From positions 1,552,501 through 1,616,500 of the forward strand of contig CM053331.1 of assembly GCA_028583605.1 (NCBI GenBank): a stretch of DNA of 64,000 nt. Reading direction: 5' to 3'. This document shows positions 916 to 64,000 of this stretch, piece after piece (position 1 is the first letter of the stretch; each line of letters begins with the position of its first letter). The notes under the pieces were generated by a model that was not told the origin of the DNA, made no database searches, and worked only from the letters and a program-made list of their open reading frames with translations. This DNA is from Dastarcus helophoroides. Lineage: Eukaryota > Arthropoda > Insecta > Coleoptera > Bothrideridae. Made by a program: the position numbers and the translations under genes.

Positions 916-42964
<42,049 letters not shown>

Positions 42965-48100: not shown

Positions 48101-51100
48101 TTATTTCAAAATTAAGAGCAACTGCTGTTGTGTTTTTTAATCTTTTTTGGTTTCAGGAGATAAGTATATCAATTTTTAATTTTGAAAATAACCAAGGACC
48201 AATCCTTCCATCAAAATGAAATGCAAAAAAATTAATCACTTGTTTCATGTAACGCGAAATTTCAATATTTTTCAAGTTTTTTAAGTTTTACGGTCAATAT
48301 TTCAATTTTTCTAAAATATTTCACTTTAACTCACAAAATTTTATTTTTCTCTCCAATTTTTAGGTTAGGTTAGATTAGGTTAGGTTGAAATTTCGCCTCT
48401 TTTCTAAAATTGTTCCACTAAAACCTGATTTTTCTTATTCTTCATTGATTTTTCTTATAAAGATCAAGTAAAAAAAGACATGAATTTGACAATAAATTTA
48501 ATTATAAATTTAAAAATTCTAATATCCTACTTTGAAAACGAACTATTTCTTATATAAAATGAAAATTTGTTGAAATTATGACCCGCATGATACATTTTAA
48601 TGTTTTTTTCAATTTATTTAACATTTCTTCGGCCCAGTTTGGAAATATTTAAATTTTTACGGTTTGTTGACAATTTTCTAAACAATTTTTGAAATGCAAA
48701 CCATAAAAATTTAAATATTTCCAAACTGGGCCGAAGAAATGTTAAATAAATTGAAAAAAACATAATATTTCCGGTCAATAAGGGTCTACCATGAAGAATA
48801 TACATTTAAATGTAATTGGGATGATTAAACGGGTTAAAATTTATAAAATAACGCAGAGAAATAAAGCATAATTTTAAATAATACAACGACTCGAGTCATA
48901 TTAAATTAATGTGCTACTTGCAAAACATCATTAAATAATTTTAGCAACAAAGCTGGCCATCAGAAATTTAACTAAGCCCAACGGGGTCAATAACCTTTTT
49001 GACATTTCAAAAATTCAACACCTACTCTACAGTAGATATATCTATGGGTAGTTCACACTACGTGTCATTTTTAAAATGTCAAAAATCGTTGACGTTTACA
49101 AAGAGATTAAACCATAGAATACCTTCATAGTAGGTTAGTTAGGTTAGGTTAGGTTAGGTTAGGTTAGGTTAGGTTAGGTTAGGTTAGGTTAGGTTAGGTT
49201 AGGTTAGGTTAGGTTAGGTTAGGTTAGGTTAGGTTAGCTTAGGTTAGCTTAGGTTAGGTTAGGTTAGGTTAGACGCTAAATTTTTGGCCCCGATTTAAAA
49301 CGATGGGACCCCATCATCACTAAAATTAACAAAATGGGGTCCCGCAAAAAATCTAATCGGGCGCCGCACTTATTGGATCGAGACCTGTTAAAATTAATTA
49401 AAAGTCGACCACTTGATAACATTCAAAGATAAAAAGAGTACTAACCTCGTATTATAAAATCACCGCACTCGCACTCACTGTGGCACTCGCCAAATATATG
49501 CTCGGTGTACCTTCTATGCACTAACCTATCGAAAATCGTCCAAATACATCCCAAGAATTCCCGCAGTTCGCTCCCCAGTGGTTCCCTCAAGCAATCCTCA
49601 ATTTGTCTCCGAATCAACTTAAAGAAATTTCTGACGTCTTCCCCCTCGTAAAAACTTAATCTTTCCCTCAGTAAATTTATTTCGGACGTCAGGAATACGC
49701 TCGCGAACGATCGATCGGTAAAAGCGGCCAAACGGCAGAGAAAGTGACCGGTTCGGTCTAAAACACTGTCTTCCATAAGACATTCGAAATAGTTGTCATC
49801 TATGTGGCGCTCTTCCCGATTTTCGTAGTATTTCAAGCGCTGGACGATGCATTCTTCCATCAAGTGGAAATGGACACGACCCTTGGGAGGTTTTAGATAA
49901 AATGACATAGTACGAAGCACCAACGGACATTTCTAGTGTCAAGGATACACAAAATACATCATAAAGATACACTCAACATAATAAAATATCTGTATTTGTT
50001 TTGTTTATTATTACAGCTTAGATTTTATTATTATTTACTTGGATAAATAGTCAAAGATTATTTACGAAACATAACCTCCAAAATTCGATCAAAACATAAC
50101 CTTACTTTGGTAATCTTCTTCTTCTCTTGTAAGATATGCCAGTAGTTCAGTTGTATTGATTTGGCCTCTGCGGATATGGATAACCAGATTATCTCTGCGT
50201 TTGCTAAGGGTAGCCACACATGAACGCATTTCAATCGATGGCCCATATACTTTTTCAATTATTCATATGCGGGCTCGCGTGTCGTAGCAATGAGCAACAG
50301 ATTAAACATTTTTAACTCTTACTATGTGGAATTCTTCACTACTCAAAACTTATAAACTGCTTTAAGAATAATTACAAGATATATTAAAAATTCTTTAATA
50401 AACCACTGGTGTAACCGCCGACAATGCTAAAAAAAAAGGAAATTTAAATATACTTTTAAAAAATTTGAGCCTCGAAATGACTTTTTTTTGTAGAGATTTT
50501 CATTTAATGGACATTTTGAGCGTAATTCTTATTTTTAGTCAAAAATTAATTTTCTACAAAAACCTCAATTTTTGCTTAAAATATCAGCTCCAATTTTAAA
50601 ACTTGGATTTTTTTTAATTTGGGAATTCCAAATTAAAACTAGAAATTTTTAGTTCCTTTGAGTTTTTTCGAGTTTGTCTTAAAATATCGACTTTTTTAGA
50701 AACTTTTTGGCTAAAACTAGAAACTGTTGACTTTTTTTCTAAGATTTTGACTTAAAAAAGATATCTCGTTCGAATTTATTCTAAACATTTTGGTTTTACA
50801 ACCGAAATTTCAATTTCAGCCCTGAAATTTTGTCTTCGATCCTGAAATTTCAAGATTAAAGTCGAAATTTGACTGCCTTTCCTAAGCTTTCACCTTTTTT
50901 TAATGTCGATTTTAAAACACAATTTTGTGTAAAATGTCGATTTTATTTTTTGAAATTTCGACTTTAAACCGGAAGTTTTGACGTCAATCTTGAAATTTAT
51001 AGGTTTAAGTCGAAATTCGAGTTTTTTTCTCAAAAATTACCCCTTATTTCGAAAAATATTGACTTTAAAACGAAATTTTGTCCGAAATGTCGACTTTAAT

Positions 51101-52938
51101 CTCGAAATTTTGAGTTTACACACGAAATTTCGTGTTCAATCCCAAAATTTCGACTTTAGTCCCGAAATTTCGACTTTAAAACGAAATTTTGTCCGAAATG
51201 TCGAATTTATTCTCATAATTTTGACTTTAAACCCGAAATTTCGACTCCAACCCCGAAATTTCGACTTCAATTCCGAAATTTTGACTTCAGTCACGAAATT
51301 TCAACTTCACTTCCCAAATTTCGACTTCAATCATGAAATTTCGACTTCAATCACGAAATTTCAAATTCATTTCCAAAATTTCGAGAATAAAGTCGAAATT
51401 CGAGTTTCTTCTCGAAATTTGTCATTATTTTATCTAATATTTCGACTTTAAAACGAAATTTAGTTGTTAATCCTGACCATATTCGGGAATGCTTCAACTT
51501 TAAACCCAAAATTTTGACTTTAAACCCAAAATCTAGACTTTCAATTCAAAATTTCGACTTTCAATCCGAAATTTCGCTTTTAATCCAAAATTTCGATTTT
51601 CAATCCAAAATTTCGACTTTAAACCCGCAATTTTGACTTCTATCCTGAAAATTTGGGTTTAAAATTGAAATTGGAAATTCTTATCGGAATTTTCACACTT
51701 TTTTTCTTAAAATTTCAAATTCAATCTCTTAGCCTTTTCGAGAACTTTTGATTTTTTTCTCAAAATTTCGATAGTGACGGAATTTAGGTAAAAGTTTGTC
51801 CGAAGTCGAAATTTCGATTTTAATCAACTTCAAACCCGAAATTTCGATTTTTAGCATCAAAAATCTAAATTTTGATTCAAAATTTTGACTATTTCTTATA
51901 TAAAATGAAAATTTGTTGAAATTATGAGCCGCATGATACATTTTAATGTAATTGGGGTGATTAAACGGGTTAAAAATTATAAAATATCGCAGAGAAATGT
52001 TAATGGGGCATAATTTTAAATAATACAACGACTCAAGTCATATTAAATTAATGTGTTACTTGCAAAACATCATTAAATAATTTTAGCAGCAAAGCTGGCC
52101 ATAAGCGTTTTAACTAAGCCCAACGGGGTCAATAACCTATTTGACATTTCAAAAATTCAACACCTACTCTACAGTAGATATATCTATGGGTAGTTCACAC
52201 TGACGTGTCATTTTTAAAATGTCAAAAATCGTTGACGTTTCCAAAGAGATTAAACCACAGAATATCTTCATAGTTAGTTAGGTTAGGTTAGACGCTAAAA
52301 TTTTGGCCCAGATTTAAAACGATTGGATCCAATCTGGCCCCCATCATCACTAAAATTAACAAAATGGGGTCCCGCAAAAAATCTAATCGGGCGCCGCACT
52401 TATTGGATCGAGACCTGTTAAAATTAATTAAAATTCGACCACTTGATAACATTCAAAGATAAAAAGAGTACTAACCTCGTATTATAAAATCACCGCACTC
52501 GCACTCACTGTGGCACTCGCCAAATATATGCTCGGTGTACCTTCTATGCACTAACCTATCGAAAATCGTCCAAATACATCCCAAGAATTCCCGCAGTTCG
52601 CGCCCCAGTGGTTCCCTCAAGCAATCCTCAATTTGTCTCCGAATCAACTTAAAGAAATTTCTGACGTCTTCCCCCTCGTAAAAACTTAATCTTTCCCTCA
52701 ATAAATTTATTTCGGACGTCAGGAAAACGTTCGCGAACGATCGATCGGTAAAAGCGGCCAAACGGCAGAGAAAGTGACCGGTTCGGTCCAAAACACTGTC
52801 TTCCATAAGACATTCGAAATAGTTGTCATCTATGTGGCGCTCTTCCCGATTTTCGTAGTATTTCAAGCGCTGGACGATGCATTCTTCCATTAAGTGGAAA
52901 TGGACGCGACCCTTTGGAGGTTTTAGATAAAATGACAT
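44849..52938 (-). CDS. PRIM2: DNA primase large subunit with duplicated first and last exons
   Basis: PRIM2 is the regulatory subunit of the polymerase alpha-primase complex; its C-terminal domain holds a 4Fe-4S cluster needed for primer initiation. Using the proximal first exon and the distal last exon, four exons with GT-AG borders join in frame to about 435 residues (the human protein is 509, with a longer N-terminus and tail). N-terminal block: MSFYLKPPKG, then FLCRLAAFTD and INLLRERLSF. Cluster cysteines: FPLCM, VRPCKHF, GGCPFVH and ACQIYFD, all four present. FGLYLKGIGL and YIYSIRHLYG are family hallmarks. The first coding exon exists at 49446-49908 and 52476-52938, the last exon at 44849-45124 and 45386-45655, so four exon combinations are formally possible. 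A further upstream exon may be missing, since the N-terminus is short. Confidence 0.93.
45386..45655 (-). CDS. PRIM2: PRIM2 last exon, proximal copy
   Basis: 90 codons with TAA stop, acceptor AATTTCAG. It starts EKSVGFGSEGGCPFVH (third cysteine), has STACQIYFDAFL (fourth cysteine), and ends QYYYLMKQ. It differs from the distal copy at five residues and is two residues shorter. As the first acceptor met after exon 3 it may be the default last exon. Confidence 0.87.
   Translation of the reverse strand, partial: EKSVGFGSEGGCPFVHYDDVFLRKSLERNLFDKDAVEVIIYERKEAPSTACQIYFDAFLAQIKGTKYDFSQPSGTNFTNPLQYYYLMKQ
45656..46335 (-). other. PRIM2 intron 3
   Basis: It holds the end of the last-exon duplication, family A foldback arms (about 45905-46000 and 46065-46290) and a single arm TTATTCATAACTAATAAAC at 46027. 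No other gene. Confidence 0.75.
46336..46549 (-). CDS. PRIM2: PRIM2 exon 3: Fe-S domain middle
   Basis: 214 bp, phase 2 in and phase 0 out. FDFGLYLKGIGL and KFWQNEY are followed by YIYSIRHLYGLEGGRKNY and VRPCKHFQ with the second cluster cysteine. The acceptor is TTTTCTAG and the donor GTAAGC. Confidence 0.95.
46656..47010 (-). CDS. PRIM2: PRIM2 exon 2: N-terminal domain end and first cluster cysteine
   Basis: 355 bp, phase 1 in and phase 2 out. VPFKFCLPLLRDRLCPLHNG and YVEVDCKSW match the IPF...YV block. The FPLCMKNLF segment holds the first Fe-S cysteine, and HNDR ends on a split Arg codon completed by the next exon. The acceptor is GTTCCAG and the donor GTGAGT. Confidence 0.93.
47110..47560. 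mobile_element. foldback element, family A, compound copy
   Basis: It carries successive arms TCCCTGAAACCAAG / TTTCAGGGGACAAG and three repeats of the central part TCTGAAGATGATAG...CTGTCGAAACGC (about 47190, 47350 and 47425), suggesting nested or tandem copies. It ends AACCAATGACCAGTCCGTTC. Confidence 0.75.
48603..48799 (-). mobile_element. hairpin retroposon D, copy 2
   Basis: The flanks ATACATTTTAATG (48590-48602) and ATACATTTAAATG (48800-48812) are a 13-bp duplication with one change. The other 3-kb duplicate has a single ATACATTTTAATG at 51937-51949, the empty site. Inverted arms of about 55 bp share AACATTTCTTCGGCCCAGTT with copy 1, and the T-run at the left is a poly(A) end on the minus strand. 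Confidence 0.9.
49131..49272. repeat. interstitial (TTAGG)n telomere-type block
   Basis: About 28 units of TTAGG (written AGGTT on this strand), with two AGCTT variants near the end. The paralogous position in the other duplicate (52271-52290) has about three units. Confidence 0.93.
49446..49908 (-). CDS. PRIM2: PRIM2 first coding exon, proximal copy
   Basis: The start is taken at the first in-frame ATG (MSFYLKPPKG). The frame extends upstream to a TAG at 49933-49935, and the AG of that TAG could serve as an acceptor adding KCPLVLRT, which would match the position of the human YPHCLQFYLQPP block. The exon ends ...GDFIIR plus one base at donor GTTAGT and joins to VPFKFC of the next exon. The Ser and Arg differences from the distal copy are listed there. 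Confidence 0.88.
49909..52475. other. region between the two PRIM2 first-exon copies
   Basis: It contains the upstream region of the proximal exon, a TTTCGA-type satellite (50800-51880) and the 5' part of the second duplicate. A GTAAGG donor motif on the minus strand near 50100 could mark an untranslated or N-terminal exon. Open frames there are not conserved between the two duplicates, so I do not call one. Confidence 0.6.
50800..51880. repeat. TTTCGA-type satellite variant, array 3a
   Basis: Units are GAAATTTCGACTTTAA or GAAATTTCGACTTCAATC with CCC/TCC spacers. They are looser than arrays 1-2 but keep the GAAATTTCGA palindrome. It is duplicated at 53830-54920. Confidence 0.85.
52476..52938 (-). 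CDS. PRIM2: PRIM2 first coding exon, distal copy
   Basis: It has the same 154 codons plus one base as the proximal copy, with the same donor (ACGAG|GTTAGT) and the same ATG. The protein differs at two positions (FANVFL for FASVFL, LGRELR for LGSELR), while six codon changes are silent. It lies within the distal copy of the 3-kb tandem duplication. Confidence 0.85.
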
Positions 52939-52953
52939 AGTACGAAGCACCAA

Positions 52954-55396
52954 CGGACATTTCTAGTGTCAAGGATACACAAAATACATCATAAAGATAC
53001 ACTCGACATATTAAAATATCTGTATTTGTTTTGTTTATTATTACAGCGTAGATTTTATTATTATTTGCTTAGATAAATAGTCAAAGATTATTTACGAAAC
53101 ATAACCTCCAAAATTCGATCAAAACATAACCTTACTTTGGTAATCTTCTTCTTCTCTTGTAAGATATATCAGTAGTTCAGTTGTGTTAATTTGGCCTCTG
53201 CCGACATAGATAACCAGATTATCTCTGCGTGTGCTAAGGGTAGCCACACATGAACGCTTTTCAATCGATGGCTCATATACTTTTTCAATTATTCATATGC
53301 GGGCTCGCGTGTCGTAGCAATGAGCAACAGATTAAACATTTTTAACTCTTACTATGTGGAATTCTTCACTACTCAAAACTTATAAACTGCTTTAAGAATG
53401 ATTACAACAAAATATATTAAAAATTCTTTAATAAACCACTGGTATAAGCGCCGACAATGCTAAAAAAAGGAAATTTAAATATACTTTTAAAAAATTTGAG
53501 CCTCAAAATGACTTTTTTTTGCAGAAATTTTCATTTAATGGACATTTTGAGCGTAATTCTTATTTTTAGTCAAAAATTAATTTTCTACAGAAACCTCAAT
53601 TTTTGCTTAAAATATCAGCTCCAATTTTAAAATTTAGATTTTTTTAATTTGGGAATTCCAAATTAAAACTAGAAATTTTTAGTTCCTTTGAGTTTTTTCG
53701 AGTTTGTCTTAAAATGTCGACTTTTTTCAGAAACTTTTTGGCTAAAACTAGAAACTCTTGACTTTTTTTCTAAAATTTTGACTTAAAAACGAAATTTCGT
53801 TCGAATTTATTCTAAACATTTTGGTTTTACAACCGAAATTTCAATTTCAGCCCTGAAATTTTGTCTTCGATCCCGAAATTTCAAGATTAAAGTCGAAATT
53901 TGACTGCCTTTCCTAAGCTTTCACCTTTTTTTAATGTCGATTTTAAAACACAATTTTGTGTAAAATGTCGATTTTATTTTTTGAAATTTCGACTTTAAAC
54001 CGGAAGTTTTGACGTCAATCTTGAAATTTATAGGTTTAAGTCGAAATTCGAAATTTTTCTCAAAAATTACCCCTTATTTCGAAAAATATTGACTTTAAAA
54101 CGAAATTTTGTCCGAAATGTCGACTTTAATCTCGAAATTTTGAGTTTACACACGAAATTTCGTGTTCAATCCCAAAATTTCGACTTTAGTCCCGAAATTT
54201 CGACTTTAAAACGAAATTTTGTCCGAAATGTCGAATTTATTCTCGAAATTTTGACTTTAAACCCGAAATTTCGACTCCAACCCCGAAATTTCGACTTCAA
54301 TTCCGAAATTTTGACTTCAGTCACAAAATTTCAACTTCACTCCCCAAATTTCGACCTTAATCATGAAATTTCGACTTCAATCACGAAATTTTAAATTCAA
54401 TTCCAAAATTTCGAGAATAAAGTTGAAATTCGATTTTCTTCTCGAAATTTGTCACTATTTTATCTAATATTTCGACTTTAAAACGAAATTTAGTTGTTAA
54501 TCCTGACCATATTCGGGAATGCTTCAACTTTAAACCCAAAATTTTGACTTTAAACCCAAAATCTCGACTTTCAATTTAAAATTTCGACTTTCAATCCGAA
54601 ATTTCGACTTTTAATCCAAAATTTCGATTTTCAATCCAAAATTTCGACTTTAAACCCGCAATTTTGACTTCTATCCTAAAAATTTGAGATTAAAATTGAA
54701 ATTGGAAATTCTTATCGAAATTTTCACCCTTTTTTTCTTAAAATTTCGAGTTCAATCTCTTAACCTTTTCGAGAACTTTTGATTTTTTTCTCGAAATTTC
54801 AATAGTGACGGAGTTTAGGTAAAAGTTTGTCCGAAGTCGAAATTTCGATTTTAATCGAATTCAAGCCCGAAATTTCGATTTTTAAGATCAAAAATCTAGA
54901 TTTTGATTCAAAAATTTTGACATTCTTGAAATTTCGAATCCTAATTTGGAGATTAAAGTCGAAATGTTTGGAATAAAACAATAATTGTGGATTTAATCTC
55001 GAAATTTATGTTTCTTTTAAATTTTATTATTATACAACGGTCTAATTGACTAAAAAAATGCGAAGAATAATTATGGATTTTTTTAATTACATAAATATGA
55101 CGGTGGACTTCTTAGTCCACTTGGAATTTTTAATTTTTTTTAGTTTCGTAATCGTAATGATTGTCCTCAGTGGCGAAGTTACATAAGTTTAACCGTATTC
55201 AGTTTTTTGCCGATAAATAGAAATATAATGTAAAAATCAAACAAATTACTTCAGCAAACTATAGTTTGCGAGACGACCTTCCTACAAATAATCAAATAAA
55301 GCTGGTATATTTACAAAAGGTATTTCGATCGGTGACTCAAGATAATTTAGAAGCGTTTTCTAGTTTTTGACACTTGAACTTGCATCCACAAATCAG
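52954..55396. other. intergenic region between PRIM2 and the peptide-precursor gene
   Basis: The genes diverge here. The left part is the upstream end of the 3-kb duplicate and array 3b. From 54926 there are about 470 bp of single-copy AT-rich DNA, with a 7-bp hairpin GTGGACT/AGTCCAC (about 55094-55111), a 16-bp palindrome GCAAACTATAGTTTGC (about 55256-55271) and GATA-type words. No kappa-B-like site is obvious. Confidence 0.65.
53830..54920. repeat. TTTCGA-type satellite variant, array 3b
   Basis: Partner of 50800-51880 in the second 3-kb duplicate, with small differences only. Confidence 0.85.
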
Positions 55397-55431
55397 TATA
55401 AAAAGCGAATATTGAGCATCTCGTATTCAGT
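55397..55431 (+). promoter_or_regulatory. TATA box and TCAGT initiator of the peptide-precursor gene
   Basis: TATAAAAAG begins at 55397 and the arthropod initiator TCAGT lies at 55427-55431, about 30 bp downstream. That leaves a short 5' UTR of about 20 nt before the ATG at 55451. Confidence 0.82.
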
Positions 55432-55450: not shown

Positions 55451-55459
55451 ATGGGATTG
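55451..55459 (+). CDS. peptide precursor exon 1 (Met-Gly-Leu)
   Basis: Three codons from the first ATG after the initiator, then donor GTAAGT. Phase 0. A very short first coding exon joined to the signal peptide exon 51 bp later. Confidence 0.85.
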
Positions 55460-58400
55460 GTAAGTAGAAGTGACCACCAGTGATGTGTTCTTATTTGAAA
55501 ATCTCTTTAGATAACTCACGCGTTCTTGTTGATGGTGTTAGTGAGCGTTCTTCACGCAGCTGAAGAACCTTCAACGACCCCCCACGTGGGACATTCCCAC
55601 CCTGGCCATCTACTGGGATCCTCGGAAGAAAAGGTATGAAAATTTCGTTTTAAAATCGACATTTAAAATAAAAAGTGAAAGCTTAGGAAAAAAAGTCAAA
55701 TCGACTTTCATCTCGAAATTTCGGGATCGAAGTCAACATTTCGGGACTGAAATCGAAATTTCGGGTTTAAAACTAAAATGTTTATCGGATCGAATTTCGT
55801 TTTTTTGAATTTTAGAAAAAAAAGTGACAAATTTCAAGAAGAAACTCGAATTTCCACTATAATTTCGAAATTTTGGAATTGAACTCTAAATTCCGGGGTT
55901 GAAGTCGAATTCCGGGATTGAAGTCGAATTCCGGGGTTGAAGTCGAAATTTGTGGTCGAAATTTCGAGCAAAAAATTGATATTTCGGACAAGATTTCGTT
56001 TTAAAATCGCAATTTTTTGAAAAAAGGGAAATTTTTTAGAAAAACTCGAATTTCGACTTAAACCTTTAAATTTCGAGATTGAAGTCAAAACTTCGGGTTT
56101 AGAGTCGAAATTTTAAAAAATAAAGTCGACATTTTGGACAAAATTTCGTTTTAAAATCGACATTTAAAAAAAAAGAGTAAACTTGGGGAAAAAATTCAAT
56201 TCGGGATCGAGGTCAATATTTCGTGACTGAAATCGAAATTTCGGGTTTAAAACCAAAATTTTTAGACAAAATTCGAACAAAATTTCGTTTTAAGTCGAGA
56301 TTTTAGAAAAAAAGTGGAAAGTTTCGTTTTAAAATCGACATTTCAAAAAAAAATGAAAACTCAGGAAAAAGATTCAAATCGACTTTAATCTCGAAATTTC
56401 GGGATCGAAGTCAATATTTCGTGACTAAAATCGAAATTTTTGGGTTAAAAGCCAAATTTTTAGACTAAATTCAGACAAAATTTCGTTTTAAAGTAGACGT
56501 TTTAGAAAAAAGTGAAAGGTTTCGAGAAGAAAGTTAAATTTCAACTTTAGTTTTAAAATTTTTGAATCGAAGTTAAAATTACAGAATTCAAATCGTAATC
56601 TTGGGTTTAATGTCGAAATTTGAAGAATAAAACCAACATTTCAGATGAAATTTGGTTTTAAGGCTGACAGTTTAGAAAAATATGTGAAAAGTTTCAAGAA
56701 GAATTCGAACTTGTTAATTTTATTTGTCGCGATTATCAACTTGACGTTTTCCCATTTTTTGTTGTAAGATTTATTTTCGAAAATAATATTAATAAATCGC
56801 AATTAATGTTGACGATTTAAAGCTCGCTTTTTAATTTATTATTATTATTCTTTAATTATTATTTTAATTTATTTTTATTTTTTATTGCCCAATTACATCA
56901 TCTGACATTTTATCAATTTTGTTTTAAAATTTATTTAAAAAAGTATTTTTTTTAAACACTTTTTGTGGGATTAACACTTTAAAAGTTGATTTATCAACTT
57001 GTTAAGTCGTGTTACTTTTTCAATGATTAATCGGATTAGGAAAATTCAATTCTTTGAGGTAATGTTACATTCTTTTTATTATTTTTCATTCTTAAACTTT
57101 AACATTGTAAAACTAAGGAAATAAAACATAAATCTTTAGTAAAACATAAGGCCAGCCCCCCGCTGTTTTATAATAAATAATATAAGTTGCTTTATAATTA
57201 GTTTAAACTTAAATTGCATCTTTTTTTTTGAAATTCATGCTTTAAACCAGAGATTTTAAATTTTCACTAAAAATGTTTACATTTTTTTTTTTTCGAAAGT
57301 TTAACTTCAACCTCAAGTTATCTGCTTTTCTCTCGACAATGCGGGTTTGTGGTCACAATAATTTTAAATTTAATTTCGTTGTTTCTTCGAATATGGACCC
57401 TAATTTCGAAATTTTTTACCAAAATTTTCAAATTTCGCTTTCAGACGCAAGATATTTGAAGTAGGTTAAAAACTTCGAAAATGTTGAGTTTTTTGGACCG
57501 GTTTCGGTTTAGGGTGATGTAATTTGTAAATACTGTTGATTATTTTATTAATTTGTTTACCAATGAAGCCTCTGAACTCTAAATTTTCTTTAGGATTCCG
57601 CCGAGTCCAAAGAATCGTCAAGAAAAACCAGAGAGGCACAACGGCCGCGAGGTCCCCTAATCGGGGGCAAATCCGTCACAAGCCCCTACCCTTACCAAGG
57701 GCCGACCCAACAGAGAAGATCCCGAGAAGCCCAACAACCCACAGGCAGCCACGGCCCCCTAATCGGAGGTAAATCCGTCACGAGCCCTTACCCATACCAA
57801 GGACCTACTCAACACAGATCAGCTAGGGAAGTCACGCAAAGCCACGGCCCCCTAATCGGCGGAAAATCCGTCACGAGCCCCTACCCTTATCAACCACCAA
57901 CCCAACATAGACAATCCAGAGAAGCCCAAAGTTCCAAAGGCCCTTTAATCGGCGGTAAATCCGTCACGAGTCCTTACCCTTTAAAACCCCAAGGTCAGCA
58001 ACGGAGAGCGAGAGAAGCCGAGCAATCTAGTGCGAGTCACGGGCCTTGGGTCGGTGGAAAATCCGTCACGAGCCCATATCCTTACAAAGCCCCAACGCAG
58101 CAGAGACCAGTTAGAGAGGCGCAAAGTTCCAGGGGGCCTTTAATCGGCGGCAAATCAGTCACTAGCCCTTACCCTTACAACCCCCCCAATCAGCAACGAA
58201 GAGCTAGAGAAGCTGATGTGTCCACGGAGACCCAGCCTCATCTTTTAGGGGGGAAATCCGTGATCAGTCCTTATCCTCTAACTCAGGAGAGACACGTAAG
58301 GGAAGCCGAAGCGGAAGCGCAGCGCAGCAGGGGGCCCTTAATCGGCGGGAAATCCGTTACGAGCCCCTACCCTTACAACCCCCCCAATCAGCAACGAAGA

Positions 58401-60271
58401 GCTAGAGAAGCTGATGTGTCCACGGAGACCCAGCCTCATCTTTTAGGGGGGAAATCCGTGACCAGTCCCTATCCTCTAACTCAAGAGAGACACGTAAGGG
58501 AAGCCGAAGCGGAAGCGCAGCGCAGCAGGGGGCCCTTAATCGGCGGGAAATCCGTTACGAGCCCCTACCCTTACAACCCCCCCAATCAGCAACGGAGAGC
58601 TAGAGAAGCTGAAGCTTCAACGGAGACCCAGAGTCACCTTTTAGGGGGGACTAGTCCTTACGAAGGGTCAACTCAGGGGAGATACGTAAGGGAAGCGGAG
58701 GCGGAAGCGCAGCGTAGCAGGGGGCCGTTAATCGGCGGGAAATCCGTCACTAGCCCGTACCCGTATCAAGGACCTACGCAACAGAGGAGATCTCGAGAGG
58801 CAACCACCACCGAACAAAGCGGTATGCGTCTCTTTAGACATAGAATTGAAAAGTAAAAAATTTAAAAGAAAAATTAATGTGCCAATGTGATGGTGAGGAT
58901 TAGGGGATAGTTAACGCCATCATTCTTCCTTGAATCTCTTCTTAATTTGCGCCAGAATTAATTAATTAATTAAAGTAAGCAATGACGCCAGATGCAACTC
59001 AAGAATCCTTATCTTCTCTCTCTATTGTTGGTCGAAATTTCGACTTCAGTCTCAAAATTTCGTTGATTTTGACTTTAGTCTTGAAGTTTCGTCATTTTGA
59101 CTTCAATCTCGAAATCTCGTCATGTCGACTTCAGTCTCGAAATTTTCACTTCAGCTTCAGACTCGAAGTTTCTTTTTTTCGACTTCAATCTCGAAATTTA
59201 GTCATTTCGACTTCAGTCTCAAAATTTCGTTCATTTCGACTTCAGTCTTGAAGTTTCGTCATTTTTGACCTCAATCTCGAAATTTCGTCTTGTCGACTTC
59301 AGTCTTCAAATTTTCACTTTAGCTTCACTCTCGAAATTAAGTCATTTCGACTTCAGTCTCAAAATTTCGTTCATTTCGACTTCAGTCTTGAAGTTTCGTC
59401 ATTTTTGACCTCAATCTCGAAATTTCGTCTTGTCGACTTCAGTCTTCAAATTTTCACTTTAGCTTCACTCTCGAAATTAGGTCATTTCGACTTCACTCTC
59501 GAAATTTCGTCATTTCGACTTCAGTCTCGAGATTTCGTCATTTCGACTTTGGTTTTGAAGTTTCGTCATTTTGACTGCAATCTCGAAATTTCGTCATATC
59601 GACTTCAGTCTCGAAATTTTCACTTTAGCTTCAGTCTTGAAATTTCGTCATTTTGACTTCAAGTCTCGAAATCTCGTCATTTCGACTTCGGTCTCGAAAT
59701 TTCGTCATTTCAGATTCGAAATTTCTTCGTTGCAACATTCTTTTGCATAATGAACCGTTGGCACCAAATACGCTTAGTACTTTCTTATTTTAATAACCAA
59801 AATATTTGAGGAACTCTGACTTAATGCGTTTGAGAAAGAAGCATCCTTGGATGCGCTTCTTGGACGTCCCTTGGACATTCCTTGGACGTCCTTCAGTTGC
59901 TCAACAAGGTTGAATGGTTGACCAAAGTCGCCTCAATGACGGGCAGCACAATGTTCCCAAAGAAGGTGGCCCAAGTGGTGGCCTAAGATCTTTTAGACAA
60001 CCCACCTCAAATCCAGAACCAAAACCTTTGGACCTTTTTTTTCTCAAAATTTCCCCCATCACATTTCGTGCTGTAACTTCAGTTAGCTTTCCTCGTATGG
60101 AGAATGTACCTTCTTCAAAAATTAAAACTTCTAGTTTCAGGCCATCCGTCAGTGTTAGGACTTGGTGAGTATCAACGGCCAGCCAGAGAATCTCAAACTG
60201 ATTCAACACCTCAGACGTCCACAACAGAACAAGTCCGTAGTCATCCGGCTACTTTGATTGGAAAAGCTTAG
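55451..60271 (+). CDS. secreted multi-copy peptide precursor (R-x-x-R/EA bounded repeats), unrecognised family
   Basis: Four exons join in frame (9, 123, 1,228 and 131 bp) to about 496 residues. Residues 1-17 are a signal peptide (hydrophobic FLLMVLVSVL, likely cut near HAA|EEP). After an acidic spacer come units of about 27-34 residues centred on GPLIGGKSVTSPYPY. Between units the motif is R-x-x-R followed by EA (RRSR, RSAR, RQSR, RRAR, RPVR, RHVR, RYVR, RPAR and the first, RKTR): 14 of 14 fit a furin-type site. EAEA runs after some sites resemble the dipeptide trimming tracts of apidaecin precursors. No cysteines are present in the repeats. It could be an antimicrobial, regulatory or structural secreted peptide precursor; sequence alone does not decide. 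No named family is recognised. Confidence 0.9.
55511..55633 (+). CDS. peptide precursor exon 2: signal peptide and acidic spacer
   Basis: 41 codons, phase 0, acceptor TCTTTAG, donor GTATGA. Signal core ITHAFLLMVLVSVLHAA, then EEPSTTPHVGHSHPGHLLG and SSEEK. Confidence 0.9.
55634..57593 (+). other. intron 2 of the peptide-precursor gene
   Basis: About 1 kb of TTTCGA-type satellite in purine-forward orientation (55650-56650) is followed by AT-rich sequence. No exon is seen. Short frames at 57273-57464 and 57536-57772 are not coding; the latter is a shadow of exon 3. Confidence 0.8.
55650..56650 (-). repeat. TTTCGA-type satellite, array 4 (purine-forward)
   Basis: Units such as GGGATTGAAGTCGAA and TTTCGTTTTAAAATCGACAT recur. 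They resemble arrays 3a/3b but in the opposite orientation. Confidence 0.82.
57594..58821 (+). CDS. peptide precursor exon 3: repeat units
   Basis: 1,228 bp, phase 0 in and phase 1 out, acceptor TTCTTTAG. It encodes twelve units, eleven with GGKSV(T/I)SPYP and one degenerate (HLLGGTSPYEG). The donor AGCG|GTATGC splits a Gly codon completed by the last exon. If not spliced, the frame reads 11 more residues and stops at 58856. Confidence 0.92.
58131..58718 (+). repeat. 198-bp (66-residue) higher-order repeat inside the precursor exon
   Basis: Composite units start at 58131, 58329 and 58527, exactly 198 bp apart; the third is 192 bp because of a deletion in its second half. Each pairs a GPLIGGKSV unit with an HLLGGKSV unit and ends in EAEAEAQRSR. 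The nucleotide copies are almost identical, unlike the older units at 57660-58130. Confidence 0.93.
58822..60140 (+). other. intron 3 of the peptide-precursor gene
   Basis: It contains satellite array 5 (59025-59730) and about 400 bp of other sequence, with TTGGACGTCC / TTGGACATTCC repeats near 59850-59890. Opposite-strand frames here are not recognisable. Confidence 0.75.
59025..59730 (+). repeat. TTTCGA-type satellite, array 5
   Basis: Units alternate GACTTCAGTCTCGAAATTTC and GTCATTTC. A duplicated block of about 126 bp is visible (AGTCTCAAAATTTCGTTC at about 59214 and 59356). Confidence 0.88.
60141..60271 (+). CDS. peptide precursor exon 4: last unit and stop
   Basis: Acceptor TAGTTTCAG; two bases complete Gly, then HPSVLGLGEYQRPARES with another R-x-x-R site, a Thr/Gln-rich spacer, and HPATLIGKA before TAG. 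The reading frame, the RPARES site and the LIG ending tie it to the same gene. Confidence 0.85.
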
Positions 60272-60659: not shown

Positions 60660-63600
60660 AACTTTTTTAAATTTGTCGAGTTTTTTTTCTCAAAATTTCG
60701 TTTTCACTCCACATTTTTTTTTGAAAATTTCGATTGTTGTAAAGTTTCGATCTTTTCAAAATTTTCGACGAAGCTTTTAAAAATACAAGATATTTCGGCA
60801 GTCTTTCGAAATTTTAAGTTTTTCAATTTCTGACTAAAAATCCGACTTTTTTAGGTTTCGACTTTTTTTCTCAAATACGATTTTTTTCAAAATTTTGAAC
60901 TTTTTATTTAAAATTTGGACTTTTTTTGAATACCGTAACAATTTTTTCAACATTTCAGTTGTTTTAATTAGGATGACTTTGAAATATTTCGACCATTTTT
61001 TGAGGTTTTCGATTTTTGAAGATTTCGAATTTTTGAAAGTCTACATTTTTTTGAAAATTTCGCTTAATTTAAAGTTTCGTTCTTTTCAAAATTTTCAACG
61101 AAGCTTTTAAAAATACAAGGCATTTCGACATTCTTTGAAAATTTCAATTTTTTCAATTTCTGGCTAAAAATCCGACTTTTTTAAGTTTCGACTTTTTTTC
61201 ACAAATTCGCCTTTTTTTGAAATTTCGTACTTTTTATTTAAAATTTGGACTTTTTTTGAATATCGTAACAATTTTTTCAAAATTTCGTTTGTTTTAATTA
61301 GGATGACTTTCAAAAATTTCGACTATTTTTTGAAATTTTCGATTTTTGAAGATTTCGAATTTTTGAAGGCCACATTTTTTTGAAAATTTCGATTATTTTA
61401 AACTTTTGATATTTTTAAAATTTTCGACAAAGCTTTTAAAAATACAAGACATTTCGGCATCGTTTCAAAATTTCAATTTTTTCAATTTCTGGCTAAAATT
61501 CCAACTATTTTAAGTTTCGACTTTTTTTCATAAATTCGAATTTTTTGCAATTTCGAACTTTTTATTCAAAATTTGAATCTTTATTGAATATCATAACAAT
61601 GTTTTCAAAGTTTCGTTTGTTTTAATGAGGATGACTCAAAAATTACGACCGTTTTTTGAAATTTTCAATTTTTGAAAATTTCGAATTTTTGAAGGCTACA
61701 TTTTTTTCAAAATTTCGCTTATTTTAAAGTTTCGATCTTTTCAAAATTTTCGACGAAGCTTTTAAAAATACAAGATATTATGGTGTTCTTTCAAAATTTC
61801 AATTTTTTCAATTTCTGGCTAAAAATTCGACTTTTTTAAGTTTCGACTTTTTTTCATAAATTCGAATTTTTTTCAATTTCGAACTTTTTATTCCAAATTT
61901 GGACTTTTTTTGAATATCGTAACAATTTTTTCAAAATTTCGTTTGTTTTAATTAGGATGACTTTCAAAAATGTGGACTATTTTTTGAAATTTTCGATTTT
62001 GGAATATTTCGAATTTTTGAAAGTCTACATTTTTTTGTAAATTTCGATTATTTTAAAGTTTCGATCTTTTCAAAATGTTCGACGAAGCTTCTAAAAATAC
62101 AAGATATTTCGGTGTTCTTTCAAAATTTCAATTTTTTTTAATTTCTGGCTAAAAATCCGACTCTTTAAGTTTCGACTTTTTTTCATAAACTCGAATTTTT
62201 TTGAAATATCGAGCTTTTTATTCGAAATTTGGACTGTTTTTGAATGTCGTAACAATTTTTTTTTAAATTCAGTCGTTTTAATTAAGATGACTTTCAGAAA
62301 TTTCGCCCATTTTTGAAATCTTCGGTTTTTGAAAATTTCGAATTTTTGAAAGTACATTTTCTTGAAAATTTCGATTATTTTAGAGTTTTAATCTTTTCCA
62401 AATTTTCAACGAAGCTTTTAAAAATACAAGATATTTCGACATTCTTTCAAAATTTCAATGTTTTCAATTTCTGGCTAAAAATCTGACTTTTTTAAGTTTC
62501 GACTTTTTTTTATAAATTCGCCTTTTTTTTGAAATTTCGTACTTTTTATTCAAAATTTGGACTTTTTTTGAATATCGTAACATTTTTTTCAAAATTTCGT
62601 TTGTTTTAATTAGGATGAGTTTCAAAAATGTGGACTATTTTTTGAAATTTTCGATTTCTGAAAATTTCAAATTTTTGAAAGTTACATTTTTTTGAAAGTT
62701 TCGCTTATTTTAAAGTTTCGATCGTTTTAAAATTTTCGACGAAGCTTCTAAAAATACAAGATATTTAGGTGTTCTTTCAAAATTTCAATATTTCTGGCTA
62801 AAAATCCGACTTTTTTTAGTTTCGACTTTTTTTCATAAATTCGAATTTTCTGCAATTTCGAACTTTTTATTCAAAATTTGGACTTTTTTTTGAATATCGT
62901 AACAATTTTTTCAAAATTTCGTTTGTTTTAATTAGGATGACTTTCAAAAATTTCGACCATTTTTTGAAATTTTCGATTTCTGAGAATTTCAAATTTTTGA
63001 AAGTCTATATTTTTTTGAAAATTTCCCTTATTTTAAAGTTTCGATCTTTTCAAAATTTTCGACGTAGCTTTTAAAAATACAAGATATTTCGACATTCTTT
63101 CAAAATTTCAATTTTTTCAATTTCTGGCTAAGAATCTGACCTTTTCAAGTTTCGACTTTTTTTCATAAATTCGCCTTTTTTTGAAATTTCGTATTTTTTA
63201 TTCAAAATTTGGACTTTTTTTGAATATTGTAACAATTTTTTTTTGTTTTAATTAGAATGACTTTCATAAATTTCGACTATTTTTTGAAATTTTCGATTTC
63301 TGAAAATTTAGAATTTTTGAAAGTACATTTTTTTTTTAAATTTCGCTTATTTTAAAGTTTCGATCTTTTCAAAATTTTTGACGAAGCTTTTAAAAATACA
63401 AGACATTTCGGCATCGTTTCAAAATTTCAATTTTTTCAATTTCTGGCTAAAAATCCGACTTTTTTAAGTTTCGACTTTTTTTCATAAATTATTTGAATTT
63501 TTTGCAATTTCGAACTTTTTATTCAAAATTTGAATCTTTATTGAATATCATAACAATTTTTTCAAAGTTTCGTCTGTTTTAATTAGGATGACTTTCAAAA

Positions 63601-64000
63601 ATTACGACCGTTTCTTGAAATTTTCAATTTTTGGAAATTTCGAATTTTTGAAAGTACATTTTTTTGAAAATTTCGATTATTTTAAAGTTTGGATCTTTTC
63701 AAAATTTTCAAAGAAGCTTTTAAAAATACAAACTATTTTGGTGTTCTTTCAAAATTTCAATTTTTTCAATTTCTGGCTAAAAATCCGATTTTTTTAAGTT
63801 TCGACTTTTTTTCACAAATTCGCCTTTTTTTGAAATTTTGAACTTTTTATTCCAAGTTTGGACTTTTTTTGAATTTCGTAACAATTTTTTCAAAATTTTG
63901 TTTGTTTTAATTAGGATAACTTTCAAAAATGTGGACTATTTTTTGAAATTTTCAATTTTGGAAAATTTCGAATTTTTGAAAGTCTACATTTTTTTTGTAA
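60660..64000 (+). repeat. ~328-bp satellite, continuing past the right edge
   Basis: AAGCTTTTAAAAATACAAG-type marks recur at about 60771, 61101, 61430, 61756, 62085, 62412, 62742, 63064, 63384 and 63714, i.e. every 320-330 bp. Each unit also has TTTCTGGCTAAAAATCCGAC, TTTTTGAATATCGTAAC and TTTTAATTAGGATGACTTTC. It keeps TTTCGA words, so it may be a derived form of the other satellite. Confidence 0.94.

Follow-up and report, generated by a model that had tools for sequence, protein, structure and literature searches.

The window, the 64,000-nucleotide stretch of Dastarcus helophoroides DNA analysed here, contains a predicted four-exon gene on its forward strand (55451-60271; Table 1). If expressed and spliced as modelled, the gene would encode a secreted multi-peptide precursor of 496 residues. 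The model takes the best-looking splice sites among many in-frame splice combinations, and all of its introns are GT-AG. A putative signal peptide extends to about residue 19-20, the N-terminus being hydrophobic as judged by eye. Upstream, a TATA box and an initiator-like element each occur at chance frequency when taken alone, and only their spacing and place are suggestive. The initial annotation had described, at the coordinates that this model fits, a precursor that has a signal peptide followed by about a dozen copies of a peptide expected to be cysteine-free; 12 units bearing a common core are counted, and cysteine is absent from the whole 496-residue protein.

Table 1. Features of the predicted precursor gene (positions in the window)
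Feature	Position	Strand	Remarks
TATA box TATAAAA	55397..55403	+	motif scan
Initiator-like element TCAGT	55427-55431	+	30 bases after TATAAAA; motif scan
Coding exon 1 (MGL)	55451..55459	+	predicted; start context ACCATGG
Coding exon 2 (ITHAFLL...GSSEEK)	55511..55633	+	putative signal peptide and pro-region
Coding exon 3	57594..58821	+	holds the 12 core-bearing units and, before them, the first RxxR site
First processing site RKTR	57621..57632	+	residues 54-57
Peptide array, u1-u12	57633..58796	+	residues 58-445; every unit ends RxxR, then Glu
B-type unit u7 (EADVSTETQPHLLGGKSVISPYPLTQERHVR)	58209..58301	+	net acidic side chains once trimmed (predicted)
B-type unit u9	58407..58499	+	
Reduced B-type unit u11 (EAEASTETQSHLLGGTSPYEGSTQGRYVR)	58605..58691	+	
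Coding exon 4	60141..60271	+	remainder of u13 (HPSVLGLGEYQRPAR) and C-terminal u14 (...SHPATLIGKA); stop TAG
Polyadenylation signal AATAAA	60322..60327	+	motif scan

The repeat array and its surroundings

Fourteen stretches of 24-35 residues each follow the first processing site. A conserved core of 15 residues, GPLIGGKSVTSPYPY, is present in 12 of them, with GGKSV in 11 and a reduced form in u11. These units fall into an A type (n=9: u1-u6, u8, u10 and u12), which carries GPLIGG or, once, GPWVGG, and a B type (n=3: u7, u9 and u11), which carries PHLLGG twice and SHLLGG once; the two types alternate from u6 onward. A degenerate HP..L(I/L)G motif can be made out by eye in the N-terminal segment and in two C-terminal segments. 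The first six units are old, with pS between them of 0.47 to 0.90, while u7 and u9 (pS 0.09) and u8 and u10 (pS 0.04) are recent pairs accompanied by a 198-base repeat that is 92% identical. The repeats are low-complexity Pro/Ser/Gly/Gln/Tyr sequence, and structure prediction gave no fold for the product of exon 3 (pLDDT 40.8), which is weak evidence because a single sequence was folded.

The DNA around the gene is itself rich in repeats. Just before the gene lies a 2.65-kb tandem duplication (49253-51889 and 52273-54921, 96.3% identical), each copy of which holds a 163-aa ORF; a primase-like identity for the ORF of the second copy (52471-52962) is not claimed, and Pfam gave no family for it. 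About 28 copies of TAGGT stand at 49131-49272, on a chromosome-size contig and 1.6 Mb from its start. TTAGG, of which TAGGT is another register, is the telomere repeat of many arthropods. Introns 2 and 3 of the gene are filled with diverged repeats of about 20 bases (28-base in intron 3) of the type AAATTTCGACTTT; such repeats also occupy introns and intergenic DNA at 16.1-23.4 kb, 36.9-40.0 kb, 51-52 kb and 54.1-54.7 kb. Directly after the gene, a tandem array with a unit of about 325 bases (60663-64000; copies 86-90% identical) apparently runs past the window end into L010, by the look of the ORFs. Additionally, a possible signal-peptide exon (LLWRISLAAFLVCACLAASHEKRGKRQDEPDIYFG) with no Pfam match is found about 1.9 kb after the window on the forward strand (L010 1869-2165).

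Further from the gene, exons at 23.7-34 kb belong to a candidate ferlin, named by eye, and 125-base satellite arrays (25911-28689 and 31232-33185) lie near exons that look C2-domain-like, again by eye. Long pyrimidine-rich (TTC/CTTT) tracts at 1351-6496 and 8918-13313 are open in several frames, and no Rfam family or tRNA was found in the window. Another ORF, on the minus strand some 9 kb ahead of the window (L009 2953-3426), begins like a signal peptide and repeats CANVFDDSCSNGGVPGSGSD(E/Q)DW... three times, each time after KR; two copies end in NNPGKR and the last in SPGRR, a possible amidated Pro. This ORF matches no Pfam family over the cut-off, and we take it to resemble beetle calcitonin B precursors. 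Such precursors are described for beetles in passages of the neuropeptide literature (PMC6585902).

Predicted processing sites and codon-level constraint

All 14 sites read RxxR followed by Glu, as EA in 12 and as EV and ES in one each. In 20,000 shuffles of the precursor after residue 20, RxxR occurred 3.98 times on average (maximum 13) and RxxRE 0.31 times (maximum 4), against 14 observed for each. The site is kept even where the core has decayed, as RPAR/E in u13 and as RKTR/E in the pro-region before u1. In addition, there are four stretches of (EA)2 or longer, and the length variation between units lies partly in this (EA)n beside the cut site.

Codon comparison among the nine A units separates the site from its surroundings. 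Both arginines of the site and the Glu after them show synonymous codon changes only (pN 0; single-position pS values are crude, some exceeding 1), whereas the two residues between the arginines have a pN/pS of 0.92. This contrast in constraint is the pattern expected of a processing site. The core is also strongly constrained, with pS 0.55, pN 0.028 and a ratio of 0.05 (0.056 once one of a near-identical A pair is dropped), while the six-residue tail and the four residues preceding the core give 0.34 and 0.56; for all of these values, unit pairs are non-independent and counts are uncorrected for multiple hits. Two positions of the core tell little, since Lys is encoded by AAA in all 11 units and the Ser after it by TCC in 10 of the 11.

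The residue before the last Arg (P2) is Ala in six sites, Val in four, Ser in three and Thr in one; it is never basic, and R-x-[KR]-R is found at none of the 14 sites. Given the known preferences of furin-type, Kex2 and prohormone convertases, this sequence pattern favours a minimal site of the furin type (RxxR) over one for Kex2 or a prohormone convertase at the final two positions. RR forms the first two residues (P4-P3) in six of the 14 sites, so another convertase could cut there. The initial annotation had listed the same 14 sites with the same following residues and the same residues between the arginines, and had argued for processing from the conservation of the site-defining arginines; its list is reproduced and its argument gains support from the codon comparison. 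Its description of the inter-arginine residues as variable agrees with the ratio of 0.92 but is too broad for the second of them, which is restricted to the four residues given above.

Searches for relatives

No relative of the precursor was retrieved. A protein-database search with the whole 496-aa precursor gave nothing at E <= 0.001 (the 7,997 candidates sharing most words being scored), and a search with its first 184 residues gave nothing at E <= 10 (1,553 candidates scored). These searches rely on shared 5-residue words and similar length, so relatives that have short arrays or are diverged can be missed. However, a coleoptericin ORF used as a control query retrieved six proteins, three of them named (from Tribolium madens, T. 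castaneum and Holotrichia oblita); since the control finds beetle coleoptericins and the database holds beetle proteins, the absence of a relative has some weight.

In Pfam every match fell below the cut-off, the best E being 0.24 with the whole protein as query and 0.061 with exon 3. In the PDB, the precursor had a single match (E 0.75) and a single peptide had none, and the strings GGKSVTSPYP and KSVTSPYP, as well as GPLIGG taken with peptide and insect, led to no paper in one open-licence library. An Attacin_C profile found no match, its control genomes being silent as well. Within the genome itself (539 Mb, 50 contigs), a search in which seven candidates were scored found the gene itself (exons 2-4) but no second copy, and tblastn against 22 10-kb stretches around the window reached a best E of 0.32. 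A degenerate GP[LF]IGG pattern matched eight times in the gene and 12 times elsewhere; a reversed control pattern matched 11 times, so the matches outside the gene are at chance level. The view taken from the letters alone, that the family is not a recognised one, thus held in the protein, Pfam, PDB and open-licence literature searches, and by these searches the precursor appears to represent a new peptide sequence family with a known architecture.

Predicted peptides and their possible function

In the proposed pathway, a furin-type convertase in the secretory pathway would cut after each of the 14 RxxR sites, and the exposed (Glu-Ala)n would then be stripped by a dipeptidyl peptidase. A carboxypeptidase would next remove the last Arg only, stopping there because the preceding residue is never basic, which would leave R-x-x on the peptide. 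The products would be linear peptides, mostly of about 28 residues, comprising A types and a minority of B types; one predicted A-type peptide is QRSRGPLIGGKSVTSPYPYNPPNQQRRA. When EA was trimmed in silico, eight of the 12 units came to 28 residues (six A units of 31 or 35 and two B units of 31), u2, u3 and u5 to 30-31 and u11 to 24; u3, which begins with EV, was left untrimmed, and EQ stayed on u5. Removal of EA by twos leaves seven of the nine A units starting with Gln, which could become pyroglutamate. Leaving His out, the side chains of the trimmed peptides sum to a charge of +1 to +5 in A types and of -1 in B types, and the conserved core would be the target-binding part. A further proposal, which we regard as doubtful, is that one precursor yields two complementary linear peptides with a common core, nine cationic A and three acidic B, which keep their R-x-x tails and act jointly on one target.

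The design of the precursor matches that of the apidaecin, ant hymenoptaecin and Baramicin polyproteins, and a role in host defence is favoured first. By this analogy the precursor would be a furin-type polyprotein used like those of apidaecin and Baramicin, though unrelated to them in sequence, a reading to which we give an even chance. Several observations stand against it besides the promoter: the B types are not cationic, R-x-[KR]-R is found at none of the sites, the RR pairs leave room for another convertase, and constraint on the core is expected in a structural protein too. Promoter evidence for an immune role is mixed. Strict kB sites (GGGRAYYYYY) number zero in the 1,500 bp upstream of the gene and zero in its introns, of which there are three. 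A single strict site stands further out, at 52592 (2.9 kb upstream; 0.29 expected within 3 kb); like the looser matches that introns 2 and 3 contain, it does not exceed chance level. A strict site lies within 600 bp of all four coleoptericin ORFs examined, which were drawn from five of the eight strongest among 11 coleoptericin matches and are tandem relatives, perhaps two independent cases. In the four defensin genes of the same genome, a scan of 1,450 bases upstream of the mature domain showed no strict site and, in one gene, a looser match; the scanned stretch takes in the signal-peptide starts, which are 239, 273, 826 and 279 bases away from that domain. Since defensin genes lack the strict site too, its absence was downgraded as an argument against immunity.

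The lack of a strict site in the 1,500 bp upstream would also suit a secreted polyprotein of a gland or of the reproductive system (seminal fluid, defensive gland, saliva or gut), processed by a furin-type convertase or by tryptic enzymes outside the cell. EA/RxxR processing is not confined to immune peptides, and the gene has neither a relative found nor a second genome copy; the core, however, is strongly constrained rather than diversifying, and this origin, although the foremost of the alternatives, is rated as unlikely. The same promoter observation fits a regulatory (neuro- or endocrine) precursor, whose core would be a receptor ligand released repeatedly from one chain, an arrangement known from multi-copy neuropeptide precursors of insects. 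The multi-copy arrangement, the near-invariant core, the RR pair in six of the 14 sites and the KR-bounded, three-copy precursor-like ORF about 9 kb before the window are consistent with such a role, yet an amidation Gly stands before a dibasic pair in no case and before RxxR at one of 14 sites (not all neuropeptides being amidated), and the P2-P1 pair is nowhere dibasic. Most beetle neuropeptides are common to several species, which counts against a regulatory role, as does the lack of a relative in a database holding Tribolium proteins. Furthermore, SPYP and GGKS do not appear in the body text of two publications on beetle neuropeptides (PMC6585902; PMC9552230). A regulatory function is rated as rather improbable.

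Least probable of all, and quite improbable, is an unprocessed structural repeat protein (cuticle, silk or adhesive) in which RxxR-E is merely part of the repeat. Low-complexity repeats without a predicted fold would be natural in such a protein, and purifying selection is expected there too. It fits poorly, however, with arginines and Glu that are fixed around residues that vary (0.92, the second only A, V, S or T), with sites that persist where the repeat has decayed, with (EA)n length variation that adjoins the cut site, and with the lack of a Pfam family over the cut-off or of any PDB match beyond the one noted above.

If the peptides are released, they would form a family for which a database with beetle proteins yielded no relative, and each transcript would supply a dozen copies. 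That the core is nearly invariant suggests a specific partner, and directly testable synthetic peptides follow from the precursor sequence. More generally, multi-peptide precursor genes of insects can escape homology-based catalogues.

The known systems compared include the coleoptericins, which are beetle peptides, and acaloleptin, which has a multi-copy design. A coleoptericin cluster on C1 of the same genome gives 11 PF06286 matches, eight over the cut-off (best E 2.6e-22); with its named relatives, the coleoptericins of Tribolium and Holotrichia, it marks the genome as a beetle's. Its ORFs at 29.58-29.60 Mb (L068, L069 and L071) contain two coleoptericin-like domains with a basic site between them, and kB-type sites lie about 175-235 bases upstream of their Met. 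Basic sites stand before and between the domains of the coleoptericin ORFs, a layout similar to that of the precursor; unlike coleoptericin and acaloleptin, it does not have PF06286 among its Pfam matches.

Apidaecin-type pre-pro-polyproteins of Hymenoptera are alike in having many near-identical Pro-containing peptides and Arg-based sites followed by Glu-Ala spacers, as passages of one account describe (PMC11549390). The honey bee apidaecin spacer is reported there as RREAEPEAEP, but RREAEP and EAEP both occur zero times in the precursor, and R-EA at 12 of 14 sites is a similarity of design only. The C-terminal PRPPHPRL given there as an apidaecin feature (PMC11549390) also occurs zero times, as does PRP. 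In addition, the precursor belongs to a beetle, its sites are RxxR and not RR alone, and it conserves a core in the N-terminal two thirds of the unit rather than the C-terminus. Ant hymenoptaecin precursors likewise have repeats flanked by EAEP or E-A spacers with RR or RxxR sites, and a dipeptidyl aminopeptidase has been proposed to act on E/D-A/P in the maturation of hymenoptaecin from Camponotus (PMC3415428). The domains there are 97 residues long (PMC3415428), in contrast to the 24-35-residue stretches of the precursor.

Baramicin A of Drosophila provides a further comparison. Its precursor is immune-induced and cut at RXRR, and its tandem IM10-like peptides have 23 residues and a net charge of -0.9 to +1.1, as stated in sections of the Baramicin report (PMC8423362). 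The features VxRPxRTV and RxRR, as given in those sections (PMC8423362), occur zero times in the precursor, and no homologue was found. The layout is nevertheless alike: in both, a single precursor has furin-type sites and tandem, low-charge linear peptides of about 23-28 residues (PMC8423362).
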